From Spirirestis rafaelensis WJT71-NPBG6 (GTDB taxonomy: Bacteria; Cyanobacteriota; Cyanobacteriia; Cyanobacteriales; Nostocaceae): 60,784 bases of DNA. Shown here in pieces: positions 28,137 to 53,260 of the stretch (its first letter is position 1; each line of letters opens with the position of its first letter). Both the position numbers and the translations under genes were made by a program. Location: contig JAHHID010000042.1 in the NCBI GenBank assembly GCA_019359015.1, forward strand, positions 1 to 60,784, written 5' to 3'. Under the pieces are notes generated by a model, which ran no database searches, had not been told where the DNA came from, and saw only the letters and a list, made by a program, of their open reading frames with translations.

Positions 28137-28673
28137 TTAGTAATAAGCTCCTATCAGGCTATAAGTCAGAGTCGCTAGTACCAAAAAATTCACAATAATG
28201 TAAATCAAATCACGCTTCAAAATAAAACTAAAAAGCGAAACTATTACACGAACTATAGGAGTAGCAATTAAAAGCAGCAGTCCAAGTTGAATAATTCCAC
28301 GGCTACTACCTGAAAAAACAGCTTCTACCACAGCTTTAGGAGAGCGAAACTCAGATGGTGTTCCGCGAAAAAAGTGATATTCAGCAGGTTCGGCACCATG
28401 ACGAATTAAATATAGAATACCGCCTAGCAAAACTACAGCACTAGCAATCATAACGCCATATCTGAGAAGATTGCTAAGTAGATTTTCTAGTTGCTGATCA
28501 CTTGATGTTTTCCTAATTTTATTACTATCAATATCAGGAGTTATTTTGCTAGCGCGTTGTGTTAACTCTTGAATATCAGAATCTGGTTCTGACTGCAAAG
28601 GTAGTGCAACTACTTCAATTTTTGACTGTACCGATGATTTCCACTCCCAACCCGACGAATTAAATTTATACAT
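28137..28673 (-). CDS. DUF1634 membrane protein
   Basis: 178 residues. After a hydrophilic N-terminus of about 60 residues come three membrane helices, LLRYGVMIASAVVLLGGILYLIRHG, IIQLGLLLLIATPIVRVIVSLFSF and LIYIIVNFLVLATLTYSLIGAYY, matching DUF1634. The family is almost always encoded beside TauE/SafE permeases, as here: its ATG is one base after the permease stop. It is therefore probably an accessory subunit of that exporter. Confidence 0.85.
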   Translation of the reverse strand: MYKFNSSGWEWKSSVQSKIEVVALPLQSEPDSDIQELTQRASKITPDIDSNKIRKTSSDQQLENLLSNLLRYGVMIASAVVLLGGILYLIRHGAEPAEYHFFRGTPSEFRSPKAVVEAVFSGSSRGIIQLGLLLLIATPIVRVIVSLFSFILKRDLIYIIVNFLVLATLTYSLIGAYY

Positions 28674-28674
28674 T

Positions 28675-29511
28675 TTACAGCCCCCCTAATAGACTGTTAT
28701 AGACCATCTTCAAAGCCATTACCACCAGCACAAGGCTGAAGATAATTCGCAAAATCTGCGTTTTCGCTCCCACTAGAACTTTTGCGCCTAAAAAAGCACC
28801 AGGTAATACCCCCAACATCACCGGCATTGACAATCCTGGATCGATGTAACCCCGTGCTAAATAAACCCCTGCGGATGCAGCTGCTGTTACACCGATCATA
28901 AAATTGCTGGTAGTGGTGGAAACTTTGAATGGTAGACGCATAGCTTGATCCATCGCTAATACTTTGAATCCTCCCGAACCAATTCCCAGCAAACCAGAAA
29001 GCACTCCAGCTACTAACATAATGCTAAACCCAGCCGGCACAGATTGAACTTGGTAAGACATTAATCCATTAGAAGTTGGGTAAGTACTATTGAGTTTCAG
29101 ATAGTTTGCCAGAAAGTCAGTTGACTCAGTTTCGAGATTTTCGGGTCTAGGTCGTTGTGAAAGGTATGCTGAATAAATTAAAACGATCGCCAGCACAATC
29201 GTCAGCGCTTTGACAGAAATAAAACTAGCAATTAAAGCACCAACTATCGCGCCAATTGTTGTTGCCACTTCCAGAAACATTCCCAAGCGTAAATTAGTGT
29301 AGCCTTTTTTTATATAAGTACATGCCGCTCCGGAAGAAGTCGCAATTACAGACACCAGTGAAGCACCAACAGCGTAGCGGATATCAACGCCAAACATTGA
29401 AGTTAATAAAGGAACAATTACTACTCCACCCCCTAACCCAGTCAGCGCACCGAGAAAACCAGCGCTAAATGAGCCAATCCAAACTAGTAAAGAAAATTCT
29501 AAGATATTCAA
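28675..29511 (-). CDS. TauE/SafE (TSUP) sulfite/organosulfur permease
   Basis: 278 residues, eight to nine hydrophobic helices. Family repeats GFLGALTGLGGGVVIVPLLT (N half) and GVLSGLLGIGSGGFKVLAMD (C half) are clear. Start is TTG at 29511 with AGAGGA upstream. TSUP members move sulfite, sulfoacetate, taurine-derived or similar anions. It is paired with DUF1634. Two more TSUP genes are in the window (34105, 52520), all bordering the sulfate permease region. Confidence 0.88.
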   Translation of the reverse strand: MNILEFSLLVWIGSFSAGFLGALTGLGGGVVIVPLLTSMFGVDIRYAVGASLVSVIATSSGAACTYIKKGYTNLRLGMFLEVATTIGAIVGALIASFISVKALTIVLAIVLIYSAYLSQRPRPENLETESTDFLANYLKLNSTYPTSNGLMSYQVQSVPAGFSIMLVAGVLSGLLGIGSGGFKVLAMDQAMRLPFKVSTTTSNFMIGVTAAASAGVYLARGYIDPGLSMPVMLGVLPGAFLGAKVLVGAKTQILRIIFSLVLVVMALKMVYNSLLGGL

Positions 29512-29697
29512 ATTTAATTCCTCTTTTTTTAATATGTATAAAAAGGGTGAGATAATATTTTTATGCTTTAAATTTAAACAGTTATCTTAATACTTGTAGT
29601 AGCTGATTAATTGTTACGTGTGTTACATGGTAGGCGCGTGAAGCTAAAATATTATTCGTCACTTTCAGCCCCAGCCGATGATTTTTGTGTGCCGTGG

Positions 29698-30351
29698 TTA
29701 CTCATAGGGCGAGATTTCGCCATTAAATACGTTTAGCAAACTTAACGTACCACTATCTACCATGATAAAAGCACCTAATCCGATCAGCACAAAAGGCATA
29801 AACTTATTGCCGTAGCCAGTCATAACAAGAGCGATCGCTTTGTTGTGGGTTAACTTATATGCCACATAACACAACACTCCTACCAGCAGAAAGAATACCG
29901 CTAAAATTACCAGCAGACTCTCCCAAGTCCTGCTAGCAAACAAAGGCACATAGATGCTAATGTTGTCAGTACCATTAGCAACCGTAACGGCTGCCACACT
30001 GTAAACTTGGAGATTGATTAACTTGGCAAGAATCGAGTTGTTATGCGGTCTTTCTCCCTCGTCTTCCTCTAATGTATCTTCAAAATTGAGCAAGCATTTG
30101 ATACCGATTAGTATTGGCAGTAAGCCAAATAATCCAATCAAAGGACGCGGTATCATTAAACCGCCAAAGAAACCGGGAATACTGAGGATTATTAGTGTTG
30201 CAAAACCTATATACTGACCTGCAACAATATGCCAACGACGGAACTTAGCATTGACTTGTGAAAAAAACAGCGTCAGGAGAACCATATCATCGATATTGGT
30301 GGCACTGAAGGCTGTTACCCCTGTGAAGAGTGCAGTAACTAACTCGCTCAT
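29698..30351 (-). CDS. CadD-family transporter 1
   Basis: 217 residues, five to six membrane helices. Conserved family motifs: AFSATNIDDMVLLTLFFSQVN, HIVAGQYIGFATLIILSIPGFFGGL, IGLFGLLPILIGIKCL, and VAAVTVANGTDNISIYVPLFA. The acidic NIDD and NGTDN motifs are the likely ion-coordinating sites. Founding members confer cadmium resistance, but many relatives are of unknown substrate. It lies upstream of the TSUP/DUF1634 pair on the same strand. Confidence 0.85.
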   Translation of the reverse strand: MSELVTALFTGVTAFSATNIDDMVLLTLFFSQVNAKFRRWHIVAGQYIGFATLIILSIPGFFGGLMIPRPLIGLFGLLPILIGIKCLLNFEDTLEEDEGERPHNNSILAKLINLQVYSVAAVTVANGTDNISIYVPLFASRTWESLLVILAVFFLLVGVLCYVAYKLTHNKAIALVMTGYGNKFMPFVLIGLGAFIMVDSGTLSLLNVFNGEISPYE

Positions 30352-30455: not shown

Positions 30456-31115
30456 TTATATCCCAAAACCAGGCAAAAGTTGGTACGTTCCACTTTTAAT
30501 TAGAATGGAGAGTCCCAAGTAGATTAACATAAACGGAAAGATTTTTTGACCATAGCGAGCTACAACCGGAGCTGCCAGACGGTTACGAGTCATGTGGTAA
30601 GAGAGGAAGCACCACAGCCCAATTGTCAAATAGCAAACACACAGAATTACACCCAAACTAGGAAGATTGCTACTGGCAAACAATGGCACGTAGATCCCAA
30701 TGTTGTTTGCTCCATTTGCAATGGTGACAGCAGAAACCCGGTAGGTTTGGCGATCGCGTATAGTTGCCCACAGTGATTGATTATGGCGCTGAAGTTCGTC
30801 ATAAGATGTGAAAACTGACACAGTTTGCACTGATTCCTCTTCTTCTCGACTCATTAAATTGCTAATACCAATGGCAATGGGAAGGAAACCTAGCAATCCA
30901 ATCCAAGCAGCTGGAAGTATTAAACCACCAAAGAAACCAGGGAGACTAGCAACAACTAATGCAGTGAATCCAATAAATTCACCGAGAATAATATGCTTGG
31001 GACGAAAAGTACGATTGATTTTTCCGAAAAAGGCAGTCAAGTATAAATTGTCGTCAAAGGTGGTTGCAAAAGCGGCAGAGATCCCAATAATTAATGTACT
31101 AATTAGCCAACTCAT
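30456..31115 (-). CDS. CadD-family transporter 2, divergent
   Basis: About 219 residues from the ATG at 31115. It aligns with the other four copies (FGKINRTFRPKHIILGEFIGFTALVVASLPGFFGGL; VSAVTIANGANNIGIYVPLFA) but has ATTFDDN in place of ATNIDD and NGANN instead of NGxDN, so a key acidic residue is changed. Substrate preference may differ. Directly upstream is a truncated amino-acid permease remnant (31178-31401) on the same strand. Confidence 0.82.
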   Translation of the reverse strand: MSWLISTLIIGISAAFATTFDDNLYLTAFFGKINRTFRPKHIILGEFIGFTALVVASLPGFFGGLILPAAWIGLLGFLPIAIGISNLMSREEEESVQTVSVFTSYDELQRHNQSLWATIRDRQTYRVSAVTIANGANNIGIYVPLFASSNLPSLGVILCVCYLTIGLWCFLSYHMTRNRLAAPVVARYGQKIFPFMLIYLGLSILIKSGTYQLLPGFGI

Positions 31116-31177
31116 GATCGTTACACAATGATTAAATGCTATTTTTCCTAATTTTTCTCTGTTTCTCGATGTGAGGA

Positions 31178-31401
31178 TCAATCAGAGGTGGTACGACTCC
31201 CAAACTGGTTGATGTTGCTACTGACAAAAACTAGCCCAATTAAACCAATCAGAAAACTTAGCCAGATGCCGTTTCCAAATAGAGGCAATGATTGTTTGTC
31301 CTGAATGCAATAACAGCGAAAGGTTGAGCTAGGACTTCTGGTAAATATTGGCAATCCGGCTTTAAGCTGTTGACGCTAGGTAGATGCAGTTTGATTTTCA
31401 T
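31178..31401 (-). pseudogene. Remnant of an APC-family amino-acid permease
   Basis: From an ATG at 31401 the frame reads MKIKLHLPSVNSLKPDCQYL then PEVLAQPFAVIAFRTNNH, matching the N-terminus of cyanobacterial APC permeases. A frameshift/deletion leads to PLFGNGIWLSFLIGLIGLVF and VSSNINQF in another frame, ending at TGA 31178. Only the first about 70 codons survive. A second remnant of the same region lies at 49405-49689, again just before a CadD gene. Confidence 0.75.
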
Positions 31402-32024: not shown

Positions 32025-32678
32025 ATGAAAAAGTTCAAATACATTTTGATAGTGGCGCTAGTTTTAGCAAATTTAGTATTTGCTCAACCTTCATTCGCAG
32101 ATGCGCCAAGTTTTACCAAACATCCTGACTACATCGCACTAACTAAAGAGATCAATAACTTGCAGACTCTTAAAGAAACACATGCGGGTGTAGAAGGTTT
32201 CACAACTGAGGAAATTGATAAGAAACTCAATGAGTTAGAGTTTCAAAAATATGCATTTGAGTCAGGTATTAACTGGGCACAATGTAGTAATCAGACAGGA
32301 AAGACTTTAGCTGTCTACGGACCAGAACCAAATCTGGACGAAGATGAATACTCCTCCGGAGCTTCACTGTATTTTTTGGCTGATGGTAAGACAACAAAAA
32401 ATAGATGGGATTGCAAAGGAGTTTTGCTCCCCAGCGATATCAAAGCTGTTGCCCTCACTCCTGGTGGACAAAATCAAGACTTGAACGGTGGTATTATTAT
32501 CAACGTTCCTGTTGGGACTAACTTAGTATTGAAGACAAATGCAGATACCGGGGCAATTGAATTCAATCAGGCTGGTACTAAAGTCTTCAAACCAGGTGAA
32601 ATTAACTGGTTTATCCCTAATGTGTCGCAAGCGATTGTAGATGCACGAGTGACCAATGCACCTACTAATAAGGATTGA
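32025..32678 (+). CDS. Secreted protein of unknown family, paralogue A
   Basis: 217 residues. A signal peptide (MKKFKYILIVALVLANLVFA-QPSFA) is followed by a mature protein with two Cys, Cys87 in NWAQCSNQTGKTLAVYGP and Cys120 in NRWDCKGVLLP, which could form a disulfide. The C-terminal INWFIPNVSQAIVDARVTNAPTN is also shared with paralogue B at 50929. Low-complexity acidic segment NLDEDEYSSG in the middle. Neither domain nor function is known to me. It sits near CadD copies 2 and 3 and a PAP2 gene. Confidence 0.8.
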   Translation: MKKFKYILIVALVLANLVFAQPSFADAPSFTKHPDYIALTKEINNLQTLKETHAGVEGFTTEEIDKKLNELEFQKYAFESGINWAQCSNQTGKTLAVYGPEPNLDEDEYSSGASLYFLADGKTTKNRWDCKGVLLPSDIKAVALTPGGQNQDLNGGIIINVPVGTNLVLKTNADTGAIEFNQAGTKVFKPGEINWFIPNVSQAIVDARVTNAPTNKD

Positions 32679-33860: not shown

Positions 33861-34100
33861 ATGCTAGAAAAAGAAAGAAGCAGGAACAGTTTAGCAGGAG
33901 AAGCGTTCCATCGGCAGTTACAAGCTGCTCAAGAACGGAAAAGCGCGATCGTGCTGAAAAAAGTCAACAGACGGCTTTTTGGTCGGGATCTTAAATCCTC
34001 AAAGCCTTCGCTAAATAACCTTTGTGTTTCTCATCCAATTAGAAACACAAAAATTTGTGGTGTTTACATTACCCCACTTAAAAACCCCCGTTTTGGATAG
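33861..34100 (+). CDS. Possible small protein upstream of a TSUP gene
   Basis: 79 codons: MLEKERSRNSLAGEAFHRQLQAAQERK followed by a basic, then less protein-like tail. The stop TAG (34098-34100) is part of the TAGGAG Shine-Dalgarno of the next gene, giving tight coupling. No good Shine-Dalgarno precedes its own ATG. It may be a leader peptide or a chance frame; weak. Confidence 0.3.
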   Translation: MLEKERSRNSLAGEAFHRQLQAAQERKSAIVLKKVNRRLFGRDLKSSKPSLNNLCVSHPIRNTKICGVYITPLKNPRFG

Positions 34101-34104
34101 GAGT

Positions 34105-34902
34105 ATGGACTATTTATTACTACCACTGTTAAGCTTCGGCGTTGGCATCATCGTTGGTTTGACAGGAATTGGCGGAGCATCTCTCATCACCCCTATGTTG
34201 ATTTTTGTATTTCAAGTTCCCCCTTCGGTGGCTGTTAGTTCTGATGTCGTGGCTGCCACACTAATGAAGGTTGTTGGCAGTGTCAAGCACTATCAACAGA
34301 AAACTCTCGACATGCAAGTTGTCCAATGGCTTGCATTCGGAAGTGTTCCAGGATCGCTCTTTGGGGTGGGGATTTTGCATCTAATTAGGCGTAATGGTGG
34401 ATCTAGCCTGGATTATATTCTGCTGCGCTTGCTTGGGGTGATGATTCTGTTAGTCACAGTCTTAGCGCTCGTACAATTGCTACTTTTGACTTTTTTCCCC
34501 AAGTTCACGCTACCCGAAATGCCAAAGTTTGACTTAAAAACTAACTTAGGTCGTTTTCAGACGATCACAGTAGGAGCAGTTTTAGGGTGTTTGGTCGGTC
34601 TAAGTAGTGTTTCTTCCGGTTCAATGTTTGCACTGGTGTTGATTGGCTTTTTCCGGCTTGATGCTCGTAAATTGGTAGGTACAGACATTTCACAAGCCGC
34701 TATTTTATTGTTTTTTACCTCCCTCGGACACCTCACTCTGGGAACAGTTAATTGGAGTCTGGTAATACCGATTTGGATAGGCTCAGTTCCAGGGGTATTA
34801 CTAGGTGCTAAAATCTGTCAAATCGCGCCTCAACGCCCACTGCGGTTTATCATTTACACAATGTTGATGATGGTTAGTTGGAAGTTAGTTTATCAAGCGT
34901 AA
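34105..34902 (+). CDS. TauE/SafE (TSUP) permease, second copy
   Basis: 265 residues from the ATG at 34105 (TAGGAG upstream); the longer upstream frame is not family-like. Features: SFGVGIIVGLTGIGGASLITPMLIFVFQVPPSVAVSSDVVAATLMKVVGSVKHYQ and the second-half repeat GCLVGLSSVSSGSMFALVLIGFF... LVGTDISQA. It differs clearly from the other two TSUP genes. Probable anion (sulfite or related) exporter or importer. Confidence 0.85.
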   Translation: MDYLLLPLLSFGVGIIVGLTGIGGASLITPMLIFVFQVPPSVAVSSDVVAATLMKVVGSVKHYQQKTLDMQVVQWLAFGSVPGSLFGVGILHLIRRNGGSSLDYILLRLLGVMILLVTVLALVQLLLLTFFPKFTLPEMPKFDLKTNLGRFQTITVGAVLGCLVGLSSVSSGSMFALVLIGFFRLDARKLVGTDISQAAILLFFTSLGHLTLGTVNWSLVIPIWIGSVPGVLLGAKICQIAPQRPLRFIIYTMLMMVSWKLVYQA

Positions 34903-34905
34903 GGC

Positions 34906-34977: not shown

Positions 34978-35637
34978 TTAGGCTTTCACCCACGGGAGTA
35001 AGTTGAATGTGCCTCTTTCATACATTATAAAAAGTCCCAAAAGAATTAAGACATAGGGGACAATAATCTTACCGTAGCGAGTTAAAATATCAGCAATCGT
35101 AGGATGAAGAGTTAATAGGTAAGCAATAAAGCACCAAACCCCTACCATGACAAAAAATACACTCAAAATTACTCCCAAACTGGCAAAATTCTGACCAGCG
35201 AATAAGGGAATATAAATACTGATATTATCACCGCCATTGGCAAAAGTTACCGCCGCTACTTTATATGTATTAGGATGCAGAAGGCTCAATACAAAAGATA
35301 CTATGGGGTTTCTGTCTGAGGACTGCTTAAAATTACTGGTTACTGTCTGAACTTCTGTAGTTTCTTCCCGACTCAGCAGTTGCTTTATACCAATCAAGAT
35401 TGGTAGTATTCCGAGTAATCCAATTAATTCTCGCCGCACTACCAAGCCACCAAAAAATCCTGGTAAGCTAGCGATGATGATGGCTGTAAAACCAAGGTAT
35501 TGACCAAAAAAGATATGTCGGCGACGAAAGTTAGCATTTATCTGTGAAAAAAATAGCAACAGGATAATGATGTCATCGATATTAGTGGCGAAGAAGGCGA
35601 TTATTCCTTCTATGAAAGCTGTCCCAAGCTTATTCAT
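34978..35637 (-). CDS. CadD-family transporter 3
   Basis: 219 residues. FFATNIDDIIILLLFFSQINANFRRRHIFFGQYLGFTAIIIASLPGFFGGL and KVAAVTFANGGDNISIYIPLFAGQNF carry the intact acidic motifs. A cytoplasmic loop (SREETTEVQTVTSNFKQSSDRNP) differs from the other copies. It is divergent from CadD 4, across about 200 bp filled with palindromic repeat DNA. Confidence 0.85.
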   Translation of the reverse strand: MNKLGTAFIEGIIAFFATNIDDIIILLLFFSQINANFRRRHIFFGQYLGFTAIIIASLPGFFGGLVVRRELIGLLGILPILIGIKQLLSREETTEVQTVTSNFKQSSDRNPIVSFVLSLLHPNTYKVAAVTFANGGDNISIYIPLFAGQNFASLGVILSVFFVMVGVWCFIAYLLTLHPTIADILTRYGKIIVPYVLILLGLFIMYERGTFNLLPWVKA

Positions 35638-37418: not shown

Positions 37419-37422
37419 TATA

Positions 37423-37439
37423 CTACGGTTTACCGATAG
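37423..37439. promoter_or_regulatory. Candidate Rrf2 operator, rrf2 side
   Basis: CTACGGTTTACCGATAG is a dyad (CTACGGT-TT-ACCG.TAG). It starts five bases before the TTG at 37418. The repeat extends to ATTTGAGG (37447), inverted at 37520-37544. Confidence 0.6.
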
Positions 37440-37527
37440 ATTTGAGGCATACAGCGGCGAGCTTAATTTTTCTCAAACTGACGGATGTGATAGCATCCCA
37501 ATTATGACTGACTGAAACACCTCAAAT

Positions 37528-37544
37528 CTATCGGCTTACCGTAG
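37528..37544. promoter_or_regulatory. Candidate Rrf2 operator, cysE side
   Basis: CTATCGGCTTACCGTAG, reverse complement CTACGGTAAGCCGATAG; 87 bp upstream of the cysE ATG. Identical to the site at 27242-27258. Confidence 0.6.
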
Positions 37545-37630
37545 ATTATCCATCATAATTCCTGTCTTTGGAATTAATTATTTAGGTATTTGATTTTATC
37601 TCCCTTAGCAACAAAGATCCAAACTTGCTT

Positions 37631-38356
37631 ATGCTACTAACTGATTTCCGAACGATTTATGAGCGCGATCCAGCTGCCCGTAACTGGCTGGAAGTGTTGT
37701 TTTGCTATCCTGGACTTCAAGCCATAGTGCTTCATCGCCTCGCACATCGGCTGTATAAAACAGGCATGCCCTTTATACCTCGGTTTATTTCTCATCTCAG
37801 TAGGTTTTTTACGGGGATTGAAATTCACCCAGGAGCTACGATTGGCAAGGGTGTTTTTATAGACCACGGTATGGGAGTAGTCGTTGGCGAAACAGCGATT
37901 ATCGGCGATAATGCCCTAATTTATCAAGGTGCCACCCTTGGCGGTACTGGGAAACAAAGCGGCAAGCGTCATCCCACTTTGGGTAGTAATGTGGTCGTCG
38001 GCGCAGGGGCAAAGGTATTAGGCAACATTCAAATCGGCGATAATGTCCGCATCGGCGCCGGTTCGGTGGTGCTGCGCGATGTGCCCAGCAACACGACTGT
38101 AGTCGGAATTCCCGGACGTGTAACTCGTCAAGACAACACAAGTGTCAATGCTTTAGCTCATGATAAAGTGCGCGATGTCGAAGCCGAGGTAATACGCGCT
38201 TTATTTGAACGAGTCAAAAAGCTAGAGAAGCAAGTTGTCGAGATGGAAACTGAATTACATATGTCCATCATTCAAGTGGATAACGGAGAAACCGACAAAG
38301 GTAAGTGTAATACAGATTCGGTAATTAAAGACTTTCTCGATGGTGCAGGAATTTAG
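37631..38356 (+). CDS. cysE: Serine O-acetyltransferase
   Basis: About 241 residues, start ATG 37631 ([28 protein letters not shown]). The left-handed beta-helix is evident ([54 protein letters not shown]... [27 protein letters not shown]). The enzyme makes O-acetylserine from serine and acetyl-CoA for cysteine synthesis. The C-terminus extends beyond the helix by about 60 residues with a coiled coil, longer than the minimal bacterial form. Divergent from the Rrf2 gene. Confidence 0.93.
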
Positions 38357-39528: not shown

Positions 39529-39563
39529 ATGAAATCCTTCCAGAAATTGATATATTTTTAATA

Positions 39564-41993: not shown

Positions 41994-42881
41994 CTATTCA
42001 ACATCTTTAATACGGGTTTTCCGTTCGAGAATTTCCTTCAACACCAAAGTGACAACTGCTAGGAGCGCTAACAATACAGCAGCCGAGTAAGCGGCTTCGG
42101 TTTCATACTGCTTATAAGCGTCTTCGACAAATAAAGGTAAGCTTTGAGTTTTATCGGCAATGTTTCCTGAAACTACGGATACAGCACCGAATTCACCCAT
42201 TGCTCTGGCATTTGTCAAAATCACGCCGTAGAGTAAGCCCCAGCGGATACTAGGTAAAGTGACGCGCCAAAATATCTGCCAGTCCTCTGCACCCAAGGTT
42301 CTGGCTGCTTCTTCTTGATCTTTGCCGAATTCTTCTAAAACCGGAATCACTTCACGAGCGACAAACGGCATAGTGACGAATGCTGTAGCCAACACCATAC
42401 CAGGAAAGGCAAAGATAATATTGATATTATGAGCCTGGAGCCAACCGCCAAACCATCCATTTCGCCCGTATAGCAACACAATCATCAAACCTGCGACAAC
42501 GGGTGAGATAGAAAAGGGCAAGTCAATAATGCTGAGGACGAAAGCACGACCGGGGAACTTGTGACGAGTGATCGCCCAAGCTGCACATAAACCAAATACT
42601 GTGTTTAAAGGTACAGTAATTACAGCTAGTATCAGTGTTAGCCAAGCTGCATGAAGAAAGGCAGGATGGGTAAGGTTAGACAGAAATGGACCAACCCCCT
42701 TTTTGAAAGCTTGGTAAAAGACGTTAGCAGCAGGGATGTAGAGAACTAAGCCCAAATAGGCGATCGCTATCCCAATCAAAATAATTGGCATCCAATCCCT
42801 CGATTTAACAGGTTTTTGCGGCTTTGGATCTGCTGCACCTGAGTGAATGCGAGGTGGAAAAGAGGCATCATTTTGTGTCAT
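41994..42881 (-). CDS. cysW: Sulfate ABC transporter permease CysW
   Basis: 295 residues, six membrane helices. The EAA-type loop [34 protein letters not shown] and [29 protein letters not shown] are diagnostic. It starts inside the last codons of cysT (overlap of 14 bp), so translation is coupled and both channel halves are made in equal amounts. Confidence 0.94.
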
Positions 42882-43752
42882 ATCTTCTTGCCCAAGCTTG
42901 TAAAAGATTAATTCCTATTAACAACACCAAGGAAATCAGCAGTAAGACAGTACCAATTACAGTTGCCCCAGAATAGTCATACTGCTCTAATCGCTGGAAA
43001 ATTAGTACAGGTGCAATCAAATCTTTAAACGGAGTATTGGAAGCGATAATCACCGTCGAACCATACTCCCCAACTGCACGGGAGAAACCCAAGGCAATAC
43101 CAGTCAAAATTGTCGGAAATAAAGGCGGAAAAATCACTTTCCAGAAAGTCTGCCATTGAGTTGCACCCAAACTCCAGGCAGCTTCTTCAATTTCGCGTTC
43201 CATTTCCTGAAGTACAGGTTGCACTGTCCGCACGACAAAGGGCAGCGAGATATACGTCATTGCCACCCCTACCCCCAGACGGGTAAAAGATACCTTAATG
43301 CCCAGCGGTGCTAGCAACGAGCCAAGCCAGCCATTATCGCTGTAAACTGTTGCCAAAGTTAACCCCGCAACCGCTGACGGTAGCGCAAAAGGTAAATCTA
43401 CTGAAGCTTCAATGAACCGTTTCAAGGGAAATTTATAACGAACCAAAACCCAAGCAATGAGAGTACCAAAGACCCCATTAAACAGAGATGCAATTAGTGA
43501 TGTGGTAAAAGTGACATCATAAGTTGCCAGTGCGATCGGACTAGTGGCAATTTCCCAAAATTTAGCCGGGGGTTCGGTACCCGCTTTCAGGAACATTGCG
43601 GCTATGGGGACGAACAACATTACCGTGAGGTATCCCACAGTAATTCGCCATGTCCAAGGAATTCTAGACAAATTGCTTAAGAACTTCTTCCAAGCTGGAG
43701 GTTCTGGGGGAATGAGTTGCCGAGGAGAAGAGGGAGGTGAGGAGACTGCCAT
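42868..43752 (-). CDS. cysT: Sulfate ABC transporter permease CysT (CysU)
   Basis: About 294 residues from ATG 43752 ([19 protein letters not shown]). Six helices, [29 protein letters not shown] and the EAA loop [33 protein letters not shown] longer upstream frame through repeat DNA (Leu-Pro-Leu runs) is open but not protein-like. The leader up to 43850 consists of GC-rich 9-bp repeats with no clear Shine-Dalgarno. Confidence 0.92.
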
Positions 43753-43761
43753 TTTGAAAAA

Positions 43762-43846
43762 GAGGGGGGGAGGGGGAGACAGGGGGAGCAGGGGGAGCAG
43801 GGGGAGCAGGGGGAGCAGGGGGAGCAGGGGGAGCAGGGGGAGATGA
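43762..43846. repeat. CAGGGGGAG 9-bp tandem array in the cysT leader
   Basis: About eight units between sbpA and cysT. The same unit family (CAGGGGAAG) occurs at 53498-53545 and 56318-56370. Confidence 0.85.
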
Positions 43847-43871
43847 AAAATTAATTCCTTTCCCTTTCCCC

Positions 43872-43922
43872 TTTCACGGCAGGTGCTCCACTTGGGGAGA
43901 CCCCAAGACCGCACTGCCTCCC
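43872..43922. repeat. Dispersed repeat GGCAGTGCGGTCTTGG family
   Basis: Minus-strand GGCAGTGCGGTCTTGGGGTC followed by TCCCCAAGTGGAGCACCTGC. Related copies at 27545, 53376 and, inside a gene, 58296. Confidence 0.7.
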
Positions 43923-43972
43923 CTTTTCCCTTTCCCCCTCAACAAAATTGCCCAATGCCCATTGCCCTATAA

Positions 43973-45124
43973 CTATTTCTTTTGGGCTTGAATCTTGTCA
44001 AAAAGACCGCCATCTGCGAAGAACTTGTTCTGCACGGTATCCCAACCACCGTAGTCACCAACTGTACCGAGAGTTTTGACTTTGGGATATTTGCCGGCAA
44101 GTTCTTTAGTTTGCGGTGCTGTCTCGTCTACTGGTCGGAATCCCAATTTGGCGAATTCTTGTTGTGCTTCGGGGCTATAAAGGTATTTGACAAAACCTTC
44201 TGCTACTTCCCTTGTGCCGTGCTTATCAACGTTTTTGTCTACGACTGCGATCGGGTTGTCGATGGATATATTGACATCAGGGACGACATAGTTTACTTTT
44301 TCGCCTTTTTGTTGTGCCAAGATAATTTCGTTTTCGTAGTTAATTAGGGCATCTCCTTGACCCTGTTTGAAGAAGGCATCGCTAGCTTCACGGGCATCTT
44401 TGGTCAAAAGAGGCACATTTTTATAAACGTTGGTGACAAAATCAGTCGCTTTAGCTTCGTCTCCACCAGTTTTAATTACTGAATTCCATAATGCTAAGAA
44501 ATTCCAACGCGCAATACCTGATGTTTTCGGGTCAGCGGTAATCAGCTTGACACCATTTGTACCCAAATCCGCCCAGGTTTTGATGCCTTTCGGGTTGCCT
44601 TCTCTGGTGACTAATACGGCAACTGATTTTGAGACAATACCATTGTTGGGGACTTCTTTTTCCCATCCTGGCTGAATCAATCCAGCTTTCTCAATTCTTT
44701 GAGTGTCTAATGCTAGTGCTAAGTGAACCACATCCGCTTCTAGACCGTCGATGACTGCGCGAGTTTGCGAACCAGATCCGCCGTAGCTTTGCTTAAACCT
44801 GACATTTTGATTGTGGTCTTTCTTCCACTGTTCGACAAATTTGGGTATAATTGCTTCGTGAACCGCTTTGGTGACGGCGAAAGAAACAAGGGTTAGTTCA
44901 ACGTCTTTGTTGTTGGCGGCAACAGGGCTAGCACCAGAACCACCAGCAGCGTTATTGGCAGAATTGTTTGCATTTCCACCAGAGCAGGAGGCGATCGCCA
45001 CACTCAATATCGCTCCCACCAAAAACATCGATACAAAGCCTTTGAAGGAACGCAACCTGAGTCTGCCCCTCAGATGCCCAATGGTAAGCCCCGATTGCTT
45101 CAGCTGGCGTTGCCAAAAACTCAT
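43973..45124 (-). CDS. sbpA: Sulfate-binding periplasmic lipoprotein
   Basis: 383 residues. Long N-terminus, then a hydrophobic segment and lipobox-like SVAIASC (Cys47) followed by a Gly/Asn/Ala-rich linker. The binding domain is clear: VELTLVSFAVTKAVHEAIIPKF, FKQSYGGSGSQTRAVIDGLEADVVHLALALD, and LINYENEIILAQ. It captures sulfate and hands it to CysT/CysW. First gene of the sbpA-cysT-cysW run. A candidate operator lies 25 bp upstream. Confidence 0.93.
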   Translation of the reverse strand: MSFWQRQLKQSGLTIGHLRGRLRLRSFKGFVSMFLVGAILSVAIASCSGGNANNSANNAAGGSGASPVAANNKDVELTLVSFAVTKAVHEAIIPKFVEQWKKDHNQNVRFKQSYGGSGSQTRAVIDGLEADVVHLALALDTQRIEKAGLIQPGWEKEVPNNGIVSKSVAVLVTREGNPKGIKTWADLGTNGVKLITADPKTSGIARWNFLALWNSVIKTGGDEAKATDFVTNVYKNVPLLTKDAREASDAFFKQGQGDALINYENEIILAQQKGEKVNYVVPDVNISIDNPIAVVDKNVDKHGTREVAEGFVKYLYSPEAQQEFAKLGFRPVDETAPQTKELAGKYPKVKTLGTVGDYGGWDTVQNKFFADGGLFDKIQAQKK

Positions 45125-46311: not shown

Positions 46312-46975
46312 TTATGTCCCTATCTCCCCAATGCCCACTTGGCGAGATGCTACCATGTAGCGGAATATATATTCGATCAACTCTATATAGTTATGAGCTG
46401 TTTCGGGAGAAGATGCCCAGACTGTAACACCGTGGTCGCGGATGAGCAAGGCTGACACCTGCGGTAAAGTAACACTGAAGCGCTCTTTAATCTCAGCTGC
46501 AATCAGGGAAACTTGTAAATGGTTAGCGAATATGGGAATAACACAACGAGGATTTTCTTCCCGCACTCCTAGCCCTTTTAACATCTCCAAGGGTGGCAAG
46601 ATTACGGTATCTCCCTGCACAAAGCGAGAAACCAAATTTGCCTCAACTGAGTGGATATGATAACAAACTTGTGCTTCGGGAAATAGAGTATAAAGAATTT
46701 GATGAATGGCTGTTTCCGCCGAAGGCTTCAAATCAGGTGATGATTGTGCTACTTTGCCATCTGGATAAATGCGAACGAAATCACTCTGGCATAATTTGCC
46801 TTTAGAGCGACCGCTAGCGGTAATCGGTGAAACTATTATCAGGTAAGCGAATCGAGAGATTTCCCGCAGTTCCCATCATCCAACCTTGATGGTAAAAGTT
46901 ACGGGCTGTAGCGATTAGCTCGTAACGAGGATCTAATTGTTGACCGTGGGTAGATAGTGATTCGTATTCAATCAT
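46312..46975 (-). pseudogene. mtnB: Methylthioribulose-1-phosphate dehydratase, frameshifted
   Basis: From ATG 46975 the frame reads MIEYESLSTHGQQLDPRYEL and then QGWMMGTAGNLSIRLPDNSF before ending early at TAG. In the next frame the protein continues ITASGRSKGKLCQSDFVRIY... to the end, with the zinc motif HIHSVEANL and LLIRDHGVTVWASSPETA. The two parts join across an extra base at about 46825. Otherwise the full family length of 220 residues is present. The enzyme dehydrates MTRu-1-P in methionine salvage. It overlaps mtnX by eight bp. Frameshift may be real or an assembly error. Confidence 0.75.
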
Positions 46976-47609
46976 GCGATCGCTCCCATAATCTGGCTAA
47001 TTGCTCACGCACCTCAAAGAAGTCATTCCAGGGAATATAAGGTTTTTGGGATTCATCAAGATATTTGGCTAGGCGATCGCGTGCAAATACCACAGAAGCC
47101 TCAATTGCCATATTTAAGTCGGTAACCGAATCCCCAATCGCTATCTTCTCATCAGCCGGATACTCTTCCATCACCTGCACTTTCGCAATTAGTTCTGTAT
47201 CCCCCTCGTACTCACTGCGTACCACCAAGTACTCACCACTTGTATCTACATCCACAGCATAAAGTGCATGAATCCGTTGCACCAACCCACCTAAAACAAC
47301 TTCCACCATTCCCCGCAGTCCCCCAGAAACCACCACCAAAGGCACTTTTTCCACCTCTAGAAAATCTAGCAGTTCTATAAATCCCGGACGCATCGCCTGA
47401 GGTCGAGTAAATTCCAAAATTTCCCCATAGCTTGAAGATGGAATTGATTCGAGTATTTGCCGGACTCCCTCTCGCAAAGTCAACTTTCGTGCATACATTT
47501 GCGGAAGCAAACTGGCAGAAAGCTTTGGTGCAAAATGTTTCAGAACCGCAACAAACGTTTCTTCAGCCGTAATAGTGCCATCAAAGTCGCAAAAAACTAT
47601 CCTTTTCAT
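46968..47609 (-). CDS. mtnX: HK-MTPenyl-1-P phosphatase of methionine salvage
   Basis: 213 residues from MKRIVFCDFDGT. HAD-superfamily motif I DFDGT (near residue 8), SGGL at about 95 (motif II) and IGDSVTDLNMA (motif IV). This enzyme removes phosphate from the enolised methylthio intermediate between MtnB-type and dioxygenase steps. Its end overlaps the mtnB start by eight bp, confirming an operon. The upstream leader holds a 39-bp perfect palindrome. Confidence 0.85.
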   Translation of the reverse strand: MKRIVFCDFDGTITAEETFVAVLKHFAPKLSASLLPQMYARKLTLREGVRQILESIPSSSYGEILEFTRPQAMRPGFIELLDFLEVEKVPLVVVSGGLRGMVEVVLGGLVQRIHALYAVDVDTSGEYLVVRSEYEGDTELIAKVQVMEEYPADEKIAIGDSVTDLNMAIEASVVFARDRLAKYLDESQKPYIPWNDFFEVREQLARLWERSHD

Positions 47610-47924: not shown

Positions 47925-48053
47925 CTATTCCCGATGAATTGGGAAGCCCTGTCCGTCTATAGGTTGGGGTAGTTCACTATATTGTTCTGGCTGAACTGTG
48001 AATTCTACCTGGCTGCCATCTGGACGCACAAATTTTTTGTGGCGCTTATTCAA
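47925..48053 (-). CDS. 42-residue small protein coupled to the LysR gene
   Basis: TTG at 48053 overlaps the LysR stop (TTGA, four bases). The frame reads NKRHKKFVRPDGSQVEFTVQ then PEQYSELPQPIDGQGFPIHR, and ends at TAG 47925. The overlap and protein-like composition suggest a true gene, though no ATG is present. No domain recognised. Confidence 0.45.
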   Translation of the reverse strand: MNKRHKKFVRPDGSQVEFTVQPEQYSELPQPIDGQGFPIHRE

Positions 48054-48985
48054 AGTTTTAAAGTTTCTACAGGGATCAACATTTGTTCAAAAGCGGTAGA
48101 AAGCCGACTCTGAAAACGCTGGCGATGTTTTAGCTTTAAAAAAGGACGGGTTATTTCCGTAGGACTTAACGAACCATTTCTATTATCAATGACTGTAAGC
48201 GATCGCAAAGTTGACAGAGACAGTTCTTTTTTCACCATCAAATCAGAGATTGCTGTAGCACCTACACCATTTTCAACTACAGCCTTGACCATCTCGCCAC
48301 TATTCAAAACAGAAATGACATTTAATTGCGATGGATCGATCCCCCAATTTTGCAAAGCTTGGTCAAATCTTTGCTGCGTACCAGAACCGGACTCGCGCAT
48401 CACCCATGCAGTTTGAGTTAATTCGCTTAAGCGAACCTCTCCTAATTCAAACCAAGGGTGAGATTTGCCAACCACAATTAGCAAGCGATCGCTGGCGACA
48501 ATTTCTTCCTCTAAAGAAGCCTTCAACGATGGTTGCACTTCTCCTTCCACCAAACCCAAATCAAACACACCCGTCGCTGTTCCTGCACAAATCGTTTCTG
48601 CATTGGCGAGAGTGCAATTGACAGTGATCCCTGGATATGTGCGCTGAAATTCACTAATCTTTTCTGGCAACCAATAATTACCAATCGTCAGACTTGCTCC
48701 CAAATTCAACTTACCACGTTGCAGATCGTTTAATTCCCGTAAATTCCTTTCAGTCAGAGTAACTTGCTTTAATATTGCCTGTGCTTCTATTTGTAGCAAC
48801 TTTCCTGCCTCAGTGATCTCAATGTGGCGACCAATTCGATGGAAAAGTTTGACTGCATATTCCTCTTCCAAGCTTTGAATTGCGGCACTCACAGCGGGTT
48901 GAGTAATGTAAAGCGCTTCGGCAGCACGGGTAAAGTGGAGATTTTCCGCCACAGCTACAAAAACTCGCAATTGGTCAAGTGTCAT
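48050..48985 (-). CDS. LysR-family transcriptional regulator
   Basis: 311 residues from ATG 48985 (MTLDQLRVFVAVAENLHFTRAAEALYITQPAVSAAIQSLEEEYAVKLFHR), winged HTH at residues 1-60. The effector domain contains LNLGASLTIGNYWLPEKISEFQRTYPGITV and FDLGLVEGEV. The sequence resembles the CbbR/CysL group. CysL activates sulfite-related genes in Bacillus, which suits the neighbourhood. It is divergent from the permease remnant at 49405, which it may once have controlled. Confidence 0.83.
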   Translation of the reverse strand: MTLDQLRVFVAVAENLHFTRAAEALYITQPAVSAAIQSLEEEYAVKLFHRIGRHIEITEAGKLLQIEAQAILKQVTLTERNLRELNDLQRGKLNLGASLTIGNYWLPEKISEFQRTYPGITVNCTLANAETICAGTATGVFDLGLVEGEVQPSLKASLEEEIVASDRLLIVVGKSHPWFELGEVRLSELTQTAWVMRESGSGTQQRFDQALQNWGIDPSQLNVISVLNSGEMVKAVVENGVGATAISDLMVKKELSLSTLRSLTVIDNRNGSLSPTEITRPFLKLKHRQRFQSRLSTAFEQMLIPVETLKL

Positions 48986-49404
48986 TCCCGCCATTTAATG
49001 CATCCCTAAAACTTAGTGTTTGATAAAAACTTTTCAGTTAAATCTTGATCCCACAATCCTTTCAGGAAAGAGAAATAAAGACTCATTTCCTACTAGGGTT
49101 GGGGGGTATCTGCAATGGCTAAATTTATTCAACCAAATGTACTAATTATCTGACTCTTAATCACTTTTATTTATTGTTTGGAAAATAAATAACATTTGCT
49201 TTCATCATATAGGTCGCTTAGAGTAAATATCAAGCTAGATGCACGGCAGCCCTTGCAAAGCTGATGCGTATCAAGAAAATTAAGTTTTGTAATTTTAAAA
49301 CTTAAATTGCTTGAGGCATAGCTTGCTTTTTTGAAGTTGAGCCAAGAAGCATAGGTGGTAGCGCTTATAGCTACACATAGCTTGGCAATAAAAGGAGATT
49401 GTCT
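48986..49404. other. Intergenic region before the permease remnant
   Basis: About 420 bp. It contains a GGGTTGGGGGG run near 49096-49108 and the Shine-Dalgarno AAAGGAG (49391-49397). No gene or RNA family was recognised. Confidence 0.4.
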
Positions 49405-49689
49405 ATGACTGCTGAAATCCAACTAAATCAAAGTGCTCACGGTTTAAAGAGAGAATGTCTTTCCTACGGGGAAATTATAGCTCAATCTATTGCCGTTATC
49501 GCACCTACGACAACACCAGCCGCAAATATAGCCTTGATAATTCCCTTTTCTGGAAACGGCACGTCGCTGAGTTTTCTGGTTGGCATGATTGGGCTAATGT
49601 TTGTCGCGATATCCAAGATGGTGTTCTCGTTGTTGGCAGTGGCTTTCATCCCGGATTTCTCTTGTCGATACTGTTGGCATTGGCAGTAG
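49405..49689 (+). pseudogene. Truncated APC-family amino-acid permease
   Basis: ATG 49405 with AAAGGAG seven bases upstream. The first about 70 residues are a permease N-terminus: LKRECLSYGEIIAQSIAVIAPTTTPAANIALIIPFSGNGTSLSFLVGMIGLMFV. The remainder (AISKMVFSLLAVAFIP...) does not match. A complete APC permease has more than 400 residues. The remnant breaks at the same point as the one at 31178-31401, and a CadD gene follows on the same strand in both. Confidence 0.75.
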
Positions 49690-49939
49690 CATTACAAACA
49701 TTCTGCCTACTACACCTGACAATACTTTCCCTTAGTTGTTCTTGTTGTATTTGATGCTCCGTTGTAGCTGGTTTTTCATTCAAAGAGGACGTTATCCCAA
49801 AATGGTGAGGAAAATGAAGCACGAAATTGAAACAACTCACTTCAGTTTCACTGATGCCGAAAATATTTTCTACTTAGTTGCACTAACTAATAACTACTAT
49901 CGACTAACAACTAACCTTGCAAATAAGGAATGAATGTAA

Positions 49940-50662
49940 ATGAATCAATTAGTAACAGCAATTCCTACTGGTTTAGCCGCTTTCACTGCAACCAACATTG
50001 ATGACCTTGTTATCCTCACGTTGTTTTTTTCGCAAGTGAATAAAACATTTCGTAGTCGGCACATCTATATTGGTCAATATTTGGGTTTTGCAGTACTAGT
50101 TATTGCTAGTATGACTGGGTTCTTTGGTGGTTTAGTAGTGCCACAAAACTGGATTGGACTACTTGGATTGATGCCAATTGCGACTGGTCTAAGTCGCTTG
50201 CTGAGTAAAGAAAGTGATTCTGTTGAATCAGAAACAGTTGTGACGGAAAAAAGTGCGAGACTCCATTGGAGTCGCTTCGCGAACGCTAGTTTTATTTCTC
50301 CTCAAACTTACAGCGTAGCTGCTGTGACTATCGCTAACGGAAGTGACAATATTGGCATCTATATGCCTTTATTTGCCAACAGTACCTGGGAAAGCCTCTT
50401 GATAATTCTCGGAATCTTCTTTTCGCTCGTAGGAGTTTGGTGTTACGCTGCCTACACATTAACTAGGCTCCCAGCTATTAATCAAGTTATTACTCCTCAC
50501 AGCAACGCACTCGTTCCCTTTGTCTTGATTGCATTAGGTGCTTATATTGTCTGGGAAAGCGGCGCTTCAATTCTCATCACTTCAGTTGCAAGCTGCTTAT
50601 ATTTAACCTGGTTAATTCTGGCAAAAAATTTGGGAGAGTCTCCGGAAATGGAGAAAAATTAA
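49940..50662 (+). CDS. CadD-family transporter 5
   Basis: 240 residues with intact motifs FTATNIDDLVILTLFFSQVNKTFRSRHIYIGQYLGF and VAAVTIANGSDNIGIYMPLFANSTWES. A loop segment LLSKESDSVESETVVTEKSARLHWSRFANASF carries a repeat-like insertion (GAGACTCCATTGGAGTCGCTTCGCGAACG, 50261-50288 region). The secreted protein B follows 270 bp downstream. Confidence 0.85.
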   Translation: MNQLVTAIPTGLAAFTATNIDDLVILTLFFSQVNKTFRSRHIYIGQYLGFAVLVIASMTGFFGGLVVPQNWIGLLGLMPIATGLSRLLSKESDSVESETVVTEKSARLHWSRFANASFISPQTYSVAAVTIANGSDNIGIYMPLFANSTWESLLIILGIFFSLVGVWCYAAYTLTRLPAINQVITPHSNALVPFVLIALGAYIVWESGASILITSVASCLYLTWLILAKNLGESPEMEKN

Positions 50663-51741: not shown

Positions 51742-51993
51742 AGAGTTGATCTGCGCTCAATGAATAAAAGTCGCGGCTCAAAAAACGCGCATCCGTAACT
51801 AGGCGAAAAGTGCAAACAAATCTGAATATCGCCAAAGCCAGAATCTGGGAACAAATAAAACTTGGAATCTGGCTTTCTCTTTTTAACACAAGAGACATTG
51901 CTAGTAAAATGAAAGATGAAATTGCTACTGAAGGTAGTTGGATTTTAGGCTCATTTTATTTATAAATATAAAATTAGAGTTAGGGTGTTACTC

Positions 51994-52416
51994 ATGCGGT
52001 TGCTGTTCAAAGCCAGAAATGTAGATATACAAAAGGCAAAGTTAAGGAATCCGTCGCGAGTGCGGGATCACTTGGCTAATGAGCGCACTTACTTAGCATG
52101 GATGCGGAGTGCGATCGCTCTTATGGGTTTTGGTGTTGTCATCGTCCGTCTTCGCCACTTCCAAGCACCACTAATACCACATCCTGGGGCAGGGTGGAAG
52201 TTGGGTTTAACTTTCGCTCTAGTTGGTCTATTGACAGTTTTACTCTCAACTCAACACTATTTCGCCGTCCGCGATAACATTGATGAAGATACCTATGAAC
52301 CCGCAGATCGCTGGGTAATTCTTTTCAGCCTCGCTATGCTTATTTTGGGTGCTGGGGTAATCTATTTTGTCTTCTCTGTCCCTCTCGATCCAATGAGTCC
52401 TGTGATACCTGAGTAA
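51994..52416 (+). CDS. DUF202 (YidH-like) membrane protein
   Basis: About 140 residues from ATG 51994 with the DUF202 motif VRDHLANERTYLAWMRSAIALMGFGVVIVRLRHF. Three helices. The function of the family is not established; members often stand near transporters. The next gene is a TSUP permease. Confidence 0.8.
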   Translation: MRLLFKARNVDIQKAKLRNPSRVRDHLANERTYLAWMRSAIALMGFGVVIVRLRHFQAPLIPHPGAGWKLGLTFALVGLLTVLLSTQHYFAVRDNIDEDTYEPADRWVILFSLAMLILGAGVIYFVFSVPLDPMSPVIPE

Positions 52417-52519
52417 TTGCAGCAACCTACCACCATAGCAGGTTTCAATTAGTTGCAATACATAAAAGAATAAAGGAACCGCAGATAAACACCTTCTTAT
52501 AACTGTTTCTTTTATTTAA

Positions 52520-53260
52520 ATGCTTATTTTCTCTCTAGCAGTAGTCAGCTTTTTTGCTTGGTTGGTTAGCACCCTAGCTGGTGGTGGTAGTCCTTTCATG
52601 CTCATACCTCTAGTTAACTCGATTCAAGGTGCCGCATCGGTTCCGCCGGTAATTACTATCGGTATGTTTTTGGGAAATGCACATCGCATCGTACTTTTTT
52701 GGCGATATATTGACTGGAAATTGACATTATGGTATGCTCCAGGCGCTATTATTGGGGCGATGCTCGGTGCGTATACTTTTACCCAAATTCATATAGATTG
52801 GTTGCAGTTACTCATCGGCGTTTTTTTGGTAATTAGCATTTTTGGCTTTGGATTAGAACAAAAAGAAACTACATTTAAAGTCAAAGCTTGGTATATTTTA
52901 CCTGCGGGCTTCGTCAAAGCTTTTGTCTCTGGACTAATTGGAACTACAGGTCCAGTATTGAATGCTTTCTATTTAAATTATGGTCTAGTTAAAGAAGAGT
53001 TGATTGCTACTAAAGCAACTCATGTAGTAATTATTCACTTAGTTAAAATATTGACTTATGCTGCATTTGGAATATTATCACCGCAGATTATCGCTACTGG
53101 TTTAGTCATTGGTCTAGTAGCTATACCAGCTAACTTTCTCGGTAAGTATATTCTCAATAAGATAAATGCTCAACAGTTTCGCTCGATAGTACTGGCAACA
53201 ATGGCTATCAGCGGTGTATGGATGCTGTGGGGACAACGAGATTTACTCGTTTTTTGGTAA
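52520..53260 (+). CDS. TauE/SafE (TSUP) permease, third copy
   Basis: 246 residues. WLVSTLAGGGSPFMLIPLVNSIQGAASVPPVITIGMFLGNAHR and the C-half repeat GFVKAFVSGLIGTTGPVLNAFYLNYG, with KATHVVIIHLVK. A hydrophobic helix set of seven or eight. It marks the right border of the sulfur island. A 30-bp perfect palindrome follows. Confidence 0.83.
   Translation: MLIFSLAVVSFFAWLVSTLAGGGSPFMLIPLVNSIQGAASVPPVITIGMFLGNAHRIVLFWRYIDWKLTLWYAPGAIIGAMLGAYTFTQIHIDWLQLLIGVFLVISIFGFGLEQKETTFKVKAWYILPAGFVKAFVSGLIGTTGPVLNAFYLNYGLVKEELIATKATHVVIIHLVKILTYAAFGILSPQIIATGLVIGLVAIPANFLGKYILNKINAQQFRSIVLATMAISGVWMLWGQRDLLVFW

Follow-up and report, generated by a model that had tools for sequence, protein, structure and literature searches.

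The contig JAHHID010000042.1 of the filamentous cyanobacterium Spirirestis rafaelensis WJT71-NPBG6 (Nostocales; assembly GCA_019359015.1) carries five CadD-family (PF03596) and three TauE/TSUP-family (PF01925) transporter genes around the sulfur genes sbpA-cysTW-cysA-cysR-cysE. The window analyzed here is the whole of this contig (60,784 nucleotides; G000:C42 in our numbering), part of a genome of 7.07 Mb. CadD proteins are annotated as cadmium exporters, following work in Gram-positive bacteria. We propose that the region is a transporter island of long standing in cyanobacteria and that it interleaves two regulons, each under its own control. The first, marked by a motif termed the S-box, would comprise cysE/Rrf2a, cysR/cysA, the NIL-domain gene, TSUP2 and hyp156 and would serve sulfur supply. 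The second, marked by a promoter element termed L, would be driven by the LysR-type regulator encoded at 48050; it would include Cad5-hyp279-DUF202, perhaps TSUP3, and, in trans, a lone Cad2 gene on contig C1, a second Rrf2 gene, and two genes whose products are a DUF1003 protein and a pentapeptide protein that looks secreted. Sequence comparison establishes that the genes cluster, that there are two boxes, each with its own gene set, and that LysR, promoter, CadD and hyp279 occur together. An architecture of two regulons, in which one set of CadD genes is under LysR control, is probably correct; the parts of the explanation that invoke sulfite and a transported cation are by themselves less likely than not. 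A search of the open-access literature, with subscription journals outside its reach, returned no prior description of either regulon.

The CadD island and its recurrence in other cyanobacteria

A first-pass annotation made from the sequence had described the five CadD and three TSUP genes as surrounding sbpA-cysTW-cysA-cysR-cysE and mtnXB. All of these genes were confirmed, the CadD genes at the starts it had assigned: the CadD proteins score 82.0–120.4 bits, above the Pfam threshold of 26.2, and the TSUP proteins exceed the gathering score of 32.6, and NCBIfam cut-offs are passed by SbpA, CysT, CysW, CysA and CysE. The mtn pair is also there, with mtnX present but mtnB (46312–46990, minus strand) broken; its match covers only positions 63–193 of 194 and its N-terminal part sits in a different frame, which points to a pseudogene or an assembly error. 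No CadD gene in the window directly adjoins a cys gene, and Rfam at the gathering level gave no riboswitch match in the window. The features are as follows.

26764–27234, minus: hyp156, small membrane-type protein of 156 aa without a Pfam match; predicted S-box member
27234–27261, minus: S-box directly upstream of hyp156; score 29.3 with a matrix from cysE-region sites of other genera
28137–28673, minus: DUF1634 protein, after TSUP1; PF07843, 105.7 bits
28675–29511, minus: TSUP1 (TauE/SafE); PF01925, 164.1 bits
29698–30351, minus: Cad1 (CadD family); PF03596, 115.3 bits; own clade with other genera
30456–31181, minus: Cad2 (CadD family); PF03596, 82.0 bits; Asp of transmembrane segment 4 (TM4) replaced by Asn
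31154–31377, minus: APC-type amino-acid permease remnants beside Cad2; tblastn, two pieces, 58–63% identity, E = 7e-14
32025–32678, plus: hyp217, secreted-looking; paralogue of hyp279, 53% identity
32787–33602, minus: PAP2 phosphatase; PF01569, 73.0 bits
33818–33845, plus: S-box of TSUP2; score 21.0
34024–34902, plus: TSUP2 (TauE/SafE); PF01925, 132.9 bits; predicted S-box member
34978–35637, minus: Cad3 (CadD family); PF03596, 120.4 bits
35843–36529, plus: Cad4 (CadD family); PF03596, 95.7 bits
36951–37418, minus: Rrf2a regulator; PF02082, 116.3 bits; CymR model 95.8 bits, under the cut-off of 195
37420–37547, no strand: Rrf2a/cysE control region with two S-boxes (37420, plus, score 19.1; 37520, minus, score 35.2)
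37625–38356, plus: cysE, serine O-acetyltransferase; TIGR01172, 253.3 bits against a cut-off of 210.65
38518–39729, minus: cysA, sulfate ABC ATPase; TIGR00968, 420.1 bits; the match begins at residue 70, and the start listed here is probably too early
39561–39588, plus: S-box at cysA/cysR; score 19.8
39573–40190, plus: Crp-family regulator (cysR-like); PF13545, PF00325
40693–41334, minus: NIL-domain protein; PF09383, 93.2 bits; S-box at 41363–41390, score 17.4
41994–45124, minus: cysW, cysT and sbpA, sulfate ABC transporter; TIGR02140 395.6, TIGR02139 409.4 and TIGR00971 276.9 bits, all over cut-off
48050–48994, minus: LysR-type regulator; PF03466/PF00126
49157–49231, plus: 75-bp predicted LysR-type promoter element (L) upstream of Cad5; score 63.5
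49405–49864, plus: second set of APC permease remnants, between LysR and Cad5; tblastn E = 6e-21 and 2.5e-13
49940–50662, plus: Cad5 (CadD family); PF03596, 111.6 bits
50902–51741, plus: hyp279, secreted-looking; no Pfam or NCBIfam match
51985–52416, plus: DUF202 membrane protein; PF02656, 69.2 bits
52520–53260, plus: TSUP3 (TauE/SafE); PF01925, 105.0 bits; same direction as Cad5-hyp279-DUF202

The source genome contains six PF03596 genes, five of them within 21 kb in the window, a cluster that in our judgment would not be expected by chance in 7 Mb. The sixth, the lone Cad2 gene (G000:C1:79450-80136), is separated by 882 bp, holding a single open reading frame (ORF) of 187 aa, from a gene for alkanesulfonate monooxygenase (SsuD model, 621.9 bits against a cut-off of 518.2). 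In a phylum-wide sample of 292 cyanobacterial genomes, 46 encode PF03596 proteins, as do 34 of a set of 59 composed of the source genome and its relatives. Genomes with CadD usually have several copies close together: in the source genome and relatives, another CadD gene lies within 10 kb at 77 of 113 places, a count that leaves out four weak or partial matches (G009:C46:28454, two of G018, and G033:C29).

The co-localization of CadD with sulfur genes on which the first-pass annotation had relied extends to other genomes; its absence there was half of what the annotation had said would refute it. A cysT gene lies within 15 kb of CadD in 9 of 33 CadD-bearing genomes, compared with 0.31 expected under random placement (P ∼1e-11); the estimate uses a thinned list of CadD places from which near neighbors of listed places were dropped, and the nine include the source genome and its genus-mate G002. 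Owing to common descent, the genomes are not fully independent of one another. Gene-by-gene counts, here and below, cover 31 of the 34 CadD-bearing genomes (G003, G018 and G027 are absent from the loci), and the labels Cad1–Cad5 at other loci denote best BLAST matches rather than clade assignments. Counted by genome, as the 60 locus units read are partly redundant, members of the hyp279 family are found within 10 kb of CadD in 27 of these genomes, LysR in 22, TSUP2 in 22 and DUF202 in 21, followed by cysE (10), sbpA-like genes (10), cysA (8) and cysT (6). Two gene rows recur, LysR next to (APC permease)-Cad-hyp279-DUF202 and TSUP2-Cad3-Cad4-cysK-Rrf2a-cysE-cysR, and CadD and TSUP1-DUF1634 stand in common operon-like rows in several genera. 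The density of CadD genes around sulfur genes is real and recurrent. Other genes also recur near CadD: a gene of the TerC family, likewise a metal-type transporter, is found within 6 kb in four genomes (including L069:2411-3151), and a second sulfate-binding-protein-like gene, ∼60% identical to sbpA, is found at L045, L057, L058, L090 and other loci, in L058 and L090 among ORFs that we read as phosphate-transporter-like.

The CadD paralogues of the window are old. In a tree of 234 sequences (FastTree, midpoint root) the five fall into five clades, each common to other genera, with support of 0.97–1.0 for the clades of Cad1–Cad4 and only 0.63–0.67 for that of Cad5, and they are 42–60% identical to one another; recent tandem amplification is excluded by this divergence and by the span of the clades across genera.

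The hyp279 family is closely associated with CadD. hyp279 and hyp217 match no Pfam or NCBIfam model, and their N-termini look secreted as judged by eye from the sequence. The family is present in 29 of the 34 CadD genomes and in none of the 25 genomes without CadD, and 43 of its 49 places in the source genome and relatives lie within 5 kb of CadD (three partial hyp279 matches and the four weak or partial CadD matches being left out). A structural model of hyp279 (pLDDT 77.8) consists of a helical hairpin and a beta domain, for which a fold search gave no confident match (best E = 0.035). Relatives carry an intact APC permease at both of the sites where the window holds remnants, between LysR and Cad5 and beside Cad2, and these remnants show gene loss within the island.

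The S-box and its gene set

The S-box, AATCTACGGTAAgTCGATag, lies ahead of Rrf2a/cysE, cysR/cysA, the NIL gene, TSUP2 and hyp156; the Rrf2a-cysE and PAP2-TSUP2 intergenic regions have TACGGTAA in common. A 28-base matrix trained on 13 sites of the cysE region, none of them from the window's genus, identified six sites scoring at least 14 in the window (hyp156 29.3, TSUP2 21.0, Rrf2a/cysE 19.1 and 35.2, cysA/cysR 19.8, NIL 17.4) against a chance expectation of 0.125 per 60 kb at that score, along with three further matches at 9–10. At the same threshold of 14, the S-box is found upstream of cysE in 10 of 10 and of Rrf2a in 13 of 15 cases, both of which overlap the training sites. It precedes TSUP2 in 12 of 22 genomes, the window included, as compared with 18 of 483 background genes (p = 8e-11), and is likewise found ahead of hyp156 (8/16) and NIL (3/6); the counts for PAP2, which is divergent to TSUP2, cysA and cysR are 4/16, 2/8 and 2/9, respectively. 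TSUP2 and hyp156 each have a good predicted link to sulfur; by virtue of the S-box, this one TSUP transporter and the small membrane protein hyp156 would separately belong to sulfur supply. The three TSUP proteins resemble the TauE/SafE family known alongside DUF1634 in exceeding the PF01925 cut-off, but differ among themselves in the S-box, present at TSUP2 and lacking at TSUP1 (0/13).

With counts of zero for cysT (0/6), cysW (0/5) and sbpA (0/5), the sulfate permease operon itself is without an S-box. No S-box precedes any of 83 Cad1–4-type genes (Cad1 0/7, Cad2 0/22, Cad3 0/27, Cad4 0/27), and Cad5-type genes have one in 2 of 24 cases, against the background of 18/483 (p = 0.24). Rrf2a adjoins cysE/cysK and S-box genes and is the probable S-box binding protein. 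The arrangement is reminiscent of CymR-type (Rrf2) cysteine regulons in this adjacency; it differs in that Rrf2a scores below the cut-off of the CymR model (NF047409).

Elsewhere in the source genome the S-box is only suggestive. An 18-base form of the pattern gave 50 matches compared with 38 for a reversed control, many of them containing GCGATCG, and is too short for whole-genome use. Of 30 weak-pattern loci, eight that lie outside the window score at least 14 with the matrix, and ∼15 such sites would be expected by chance in 7 Mb. Six of the eight are at a PUCC/MFS gene (25.2), a dienelactone hydrolase/glyoxalase pair (23.9), a TPR/hexapeptide pair (19.9), a 2OG-dioxygenase (18.2), a solute-binding protein (15.1) and one more gene (14.8).

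The predicted L promoter element and the LysR-type regulator

After dereplication, 26 of 40 intergenic regions between LysR and the neighboring Cad or APC gene were found to contain the dyad CAAA-N8-TTTG, as compared with 0.40 expected. A 30-base matrix built from 20 distinct LysR-Cad/APC sites alone then located sites ahead of lone Cad2, hyp279 and second Rrf2 (Rrf2b) genes. The loci contain 125 sites scoring at least 18, for which the first gene to follow on that strand is Cad5 in 45 cases, Cad2 in 24, APC in 16, Rrf2 in 9, hyp279 in 7, Cad4 in 2, DUF1634 in 1, another ORF in 17 and none in 4. A 75-base version of the element combines an ATAA-N7-TTAT-like upstream half with a TTG(A/C)TT-N17-TAAAGT-like core, which we read as a putative LysR box and promoter, respectively. 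The 75-base matrix was trained on many of the loci that it counts; independent support comes from the 30-base matrix and from a pattern search of the 59 genomes.

In the source genome, the 75-base element occurs at five places with scores of 42–68, ahead of Cad5 (window position 49157), lone Cad2, Rrf2b, the DUF1003 gene and the gene for the secreted-looking pentapeptide protein, whereas no score above 5 was obtained in 50 shuffles of the window. A short L pattern matches this genome 32 times, versus 18 for a reversed control, and 20 matches with loci were scored. A table of 32 L site rows (28 stretches and three loci of the source genome) includes pentapeptide genes in nine, Rrf2b in six, DUF1003 in five, hyp279 in three and DUF202 in one.

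Across the 59 genomes the L pattern was found at 84 places and its reversed control at 2. Orthologues of LysR (E up to 1e-100) are present in 25 of the genomes, all of which bear CadD. The L promoter occurs in 23 of these 25 genomes and in 2 of the 34 without LysR (p = 6e-12); when only CadD-bearing genomes are considered, the proportions are 23/25 and 1/9 (p = 2e-5). The two genomes with an L element and without LysR are G003, which is 54% complete, and G006, a plain contradiction. Counted by gene, the L promoter precedes Cad2 in 17 of 22, Cad5 in 9 of 24, APC in 7 of 10, Rrf2b in 6 of 9 and hyp279 in 9 of 34 cases, and none of the cys and sbp genes counted. TSUP2 was rejected as a member of the LysR regulon (0/22). 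APC genes that do not face hyp217 have an L element in 16 of 17 cases (two of the 17 from the same strain), whereas those that face hyp217, in Cad1-TSUP1-DUF1634 rows, have none (0/7), suggesting that the Cad1 rows are under other control. No convincing common motif was found among the Cad3-Cad4 intergenic regions, nor among the hyp217-APC ones. Rrf2b scores 111.4 bits with the CymR model, also under its cut-off. On plasmid ABRG53c of Pseudanabaena ABRG5-3 (L263), LysR, three CadD, DUF202, PAP2, prohibitin-family and TauE genes are found together, an arrangement suggesting that the CadD/LysR module can travel on plasmids.

Signal, substrate and competing explanations

The LysR protein scores best with the selenium-metabolism-associated NCBIfam model NF040786 (208.5 bits, under the cut-off of 250) and reaches 176.9 bits with the YeiE model NF040889 (cut-off 480). 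When its sensor domain was compared with the PDB, the top matches were 7erp (E = 4.5e-18), 7fdf (2.2e-17), 8sbf (1.6e-16) and 8sbh (4.9e-16), followed by 5y2w (4.4e-12, with 5y2v alongside) and the CmpR structure 5z49 (2.2e-10). PDB titles identify 8sbh as YeiE, 7erp and 7fdf as LysR family and 8sbf as an unnamed LysR; 7erp and 7fdf we take to be Cronobacter YeiE. Among solved structures, the sensor domain is closest to YeiE-type proteins, which are associated with sulfite. A TIGNY stretch is nearly invariant in the LysR set, and an Azospirillum LysR with 43.6% identity is encoded divergently from a gene for a putative sulfate exporter. In a study of Salmonella (PMC12880088), YeiE drives yeiH for sulfite resistance, and some YeiH orthologues are annotated as putative sulfate exporters. 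The island resembles the YeiE-YeiH system in its YeiE-like sensor domain and in having LysR divergent to a membrane transporter gene; it differs in falling under the YeiE cut-off, with NF040786 the better fit, and in that the divergent genes are CadD or APC permease rather than YeiH (no genome-wide YeiH search was made). A sulfur link of the LysR signal is plausible, and sulfite sensing is a lead, not a result.

The Asp21-Asp22 pair in TM1 is invariant among the 234 CadD sequences, and the TM4 Asp (position 136) is present in 203; all 31 exceptions have Asn and correspond exactly to the Cad2 clade (31/31, branch support 1.0). In the survey by Tsu and Saier (PMC4608589), Asp residues in TMS1 and TMS4 are fully conserved in 85 CadD and 85 MntP proteins, a rule from which the Cad2 clade departs. 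Conservation of the membrane Asp residues would favor a cation over a sulfur anion as substrate, the Cad2 clade excepted. An AlphaFold model of Cad3 (pLDDT 84.4) most resembles CcdA, a LysE-superfamily relative, although the match is weak (E = 0.076, probability 0.97). With respect to the CadD family of Gram-positive cadDX operons (PF03596, TC 2.A.77), the window proteins are alike in passing the Pfam cut-off and in the invariant TM1 pair. They differ in scoring under the cut-off of 181.65 bits for the CadD subfamily model TIGR00779 (104.6–140.4 bits for all five), in the Cad2 proteins without the TM4 Asp, and in their setting: in these cyanobacteria CadD occurs in multi-copy islands with a LysR-type promoter of their own and a secreted-looking partner of no known family.

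In the explanation that we prefer, the LysR protein would bind the L promoter and activate it upon sensing sulfite or a similar oxyanion of sulfur (or selenium). CadD, aided by hyp279, would carry a divalent cation outward through the inner membrane and form the efflux branch of a response to sulfur or metal stress. With the L element, the co-regulated genes can be listed at once and a signal can be proposed, sulfite or an oxyanion like it, which makes the substrate question directly testable. A more specific version, an undescribed LysR-controlled regulon against sulfite or thiol-metal stress that unites CadD exporters, the amino-acid permease, hyp279, DUF202, DUF1003, the secreted pentapeptide protein and the second Rrf2, with the Asn-bearing Cad2 clade having moved off divalent metals, is rather doubtful, its odds lowered a little by the fact that NF040786 outscores the YeiE model.

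Several observations weigh against this scheme. With respect to the regulons, G006 has neither a LysR orthologue nor CadD yet carries an L element ahead of Rrf2b, so that another protein may bind the element; G042 and G056 have LysR but do not match the pattern, although the matrix does score in each; 8 of the 32 L site rows lead to other ORFs or to none; 9 of 483 background genes are also preceded by the L promoter; and among CadD genes the promoter is often found only at the Cad2 and Cad5 types (Cad1 0/7, Cad3 0/27, Cad4 3/27). Only two of the eight S-box sites outside the window precede evident sulfur genes, an arylsulfotransferase-like gene (23.4) and SsuD (16.4). With respect to the signal, the better score belongs to the selenium-associated model; when solved structures are compared with the whole LysR protein, 8sbf is level with 5y2v, the rubisco-operon regulator; and at Glu150, where 7fdf has Ser and differs from 7erp, 38 of 65 sequences have Glu and 25 have Thr. 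A cation exporter would also be an odd target for a sulfite sensor.

It is quite possible, if short of an even chance, that the CadD paralogues simply export Cd, Zn, Mn or similar metals and that their sulfur neighbors are inherited synteny. The conserved TM1 and TM4 acids shared by CadD and MntP, the weak resemblance of Cad3 to CcdA and the absence of the S-box from all Cad1–4 types would suit such a role, as would an ArsR-type gene ∼5 kb from a CadD gene in G015. However, an ArsR/SmtB-type metal regulator beside CadD was looked for among 115 small ORFs within 4 kb, and no ArsR-type family (PF01022) is among the 25 of 84 families listed. The regulator that does track CadD genes is instead the LysR with a YeiE-like sensor domain, and proximity to cysT recurs across several genera beyond chance. 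In the literature on cadmium resistance transporters and Nostoc, a predicted LexA site is described before Ava_4997.

The first-pass annotation had suggested a sulfur compound, or metal bound by thiolate, as the CadD substrate, which we consider unlikely. The operon-like rows with TSUP1-DUF1634, the YeiE-like sensor with its Azospirillum relative and the Salmonella precedent of sulfite resistance under YeiE are in keeping with the idea, and loss of the TM4 acid in the Cad2 clade would be as well; on the other side, the S-box is missing from Cad1–4 and found at only two Cad5-type genes, the conserved membrane acids suit cations, and the LysE-superfamily amino-acid exporters belong to other families. 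What holds of the proposed tie to sulfur is the recurrent co-localization, the box that TSUP2 (34024) has in common with cysE/Rrf2a and the YeiE-like sensor. A place for CadD in sulfur assimilation is not supported by the sequence evidence: Cad1–4 lack the S-box, no cys gene counted has the CadD promoter, and G001, of the same genus, has no CadD match while its sbpA-cysTW-GATase row is intact at 93–95% identity (94–95% for sbpA-cysTW).

That an old hotspot of gain and loss merely gathered unrelated transporters beside a conserved sulfate operon is quite improbable: the CadD-free G001, the permease remnants, the presence of LysR on plasmids in some cyanobacteria (in Pseudanabaena ABRG5-3 with its three annotated cadmium resistance transporters alongside) and a Calothrix PCC 7716 LysR with no annotated cadmium resistance transporter within 10 kb would fit such hitch-hiking, but hyp279 follows CadD in presence and absence and the L promoter tracks LysR.

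Outside the island, the window encodes a CHAT and TIR domain protein (538–1680, minus strand) and, after the island, a photolyase/cryptochrome (54776–56275, plus strand); a cryptochrome/photolyase gene also adjoins CadD on the Pseudanabaena plasmid.

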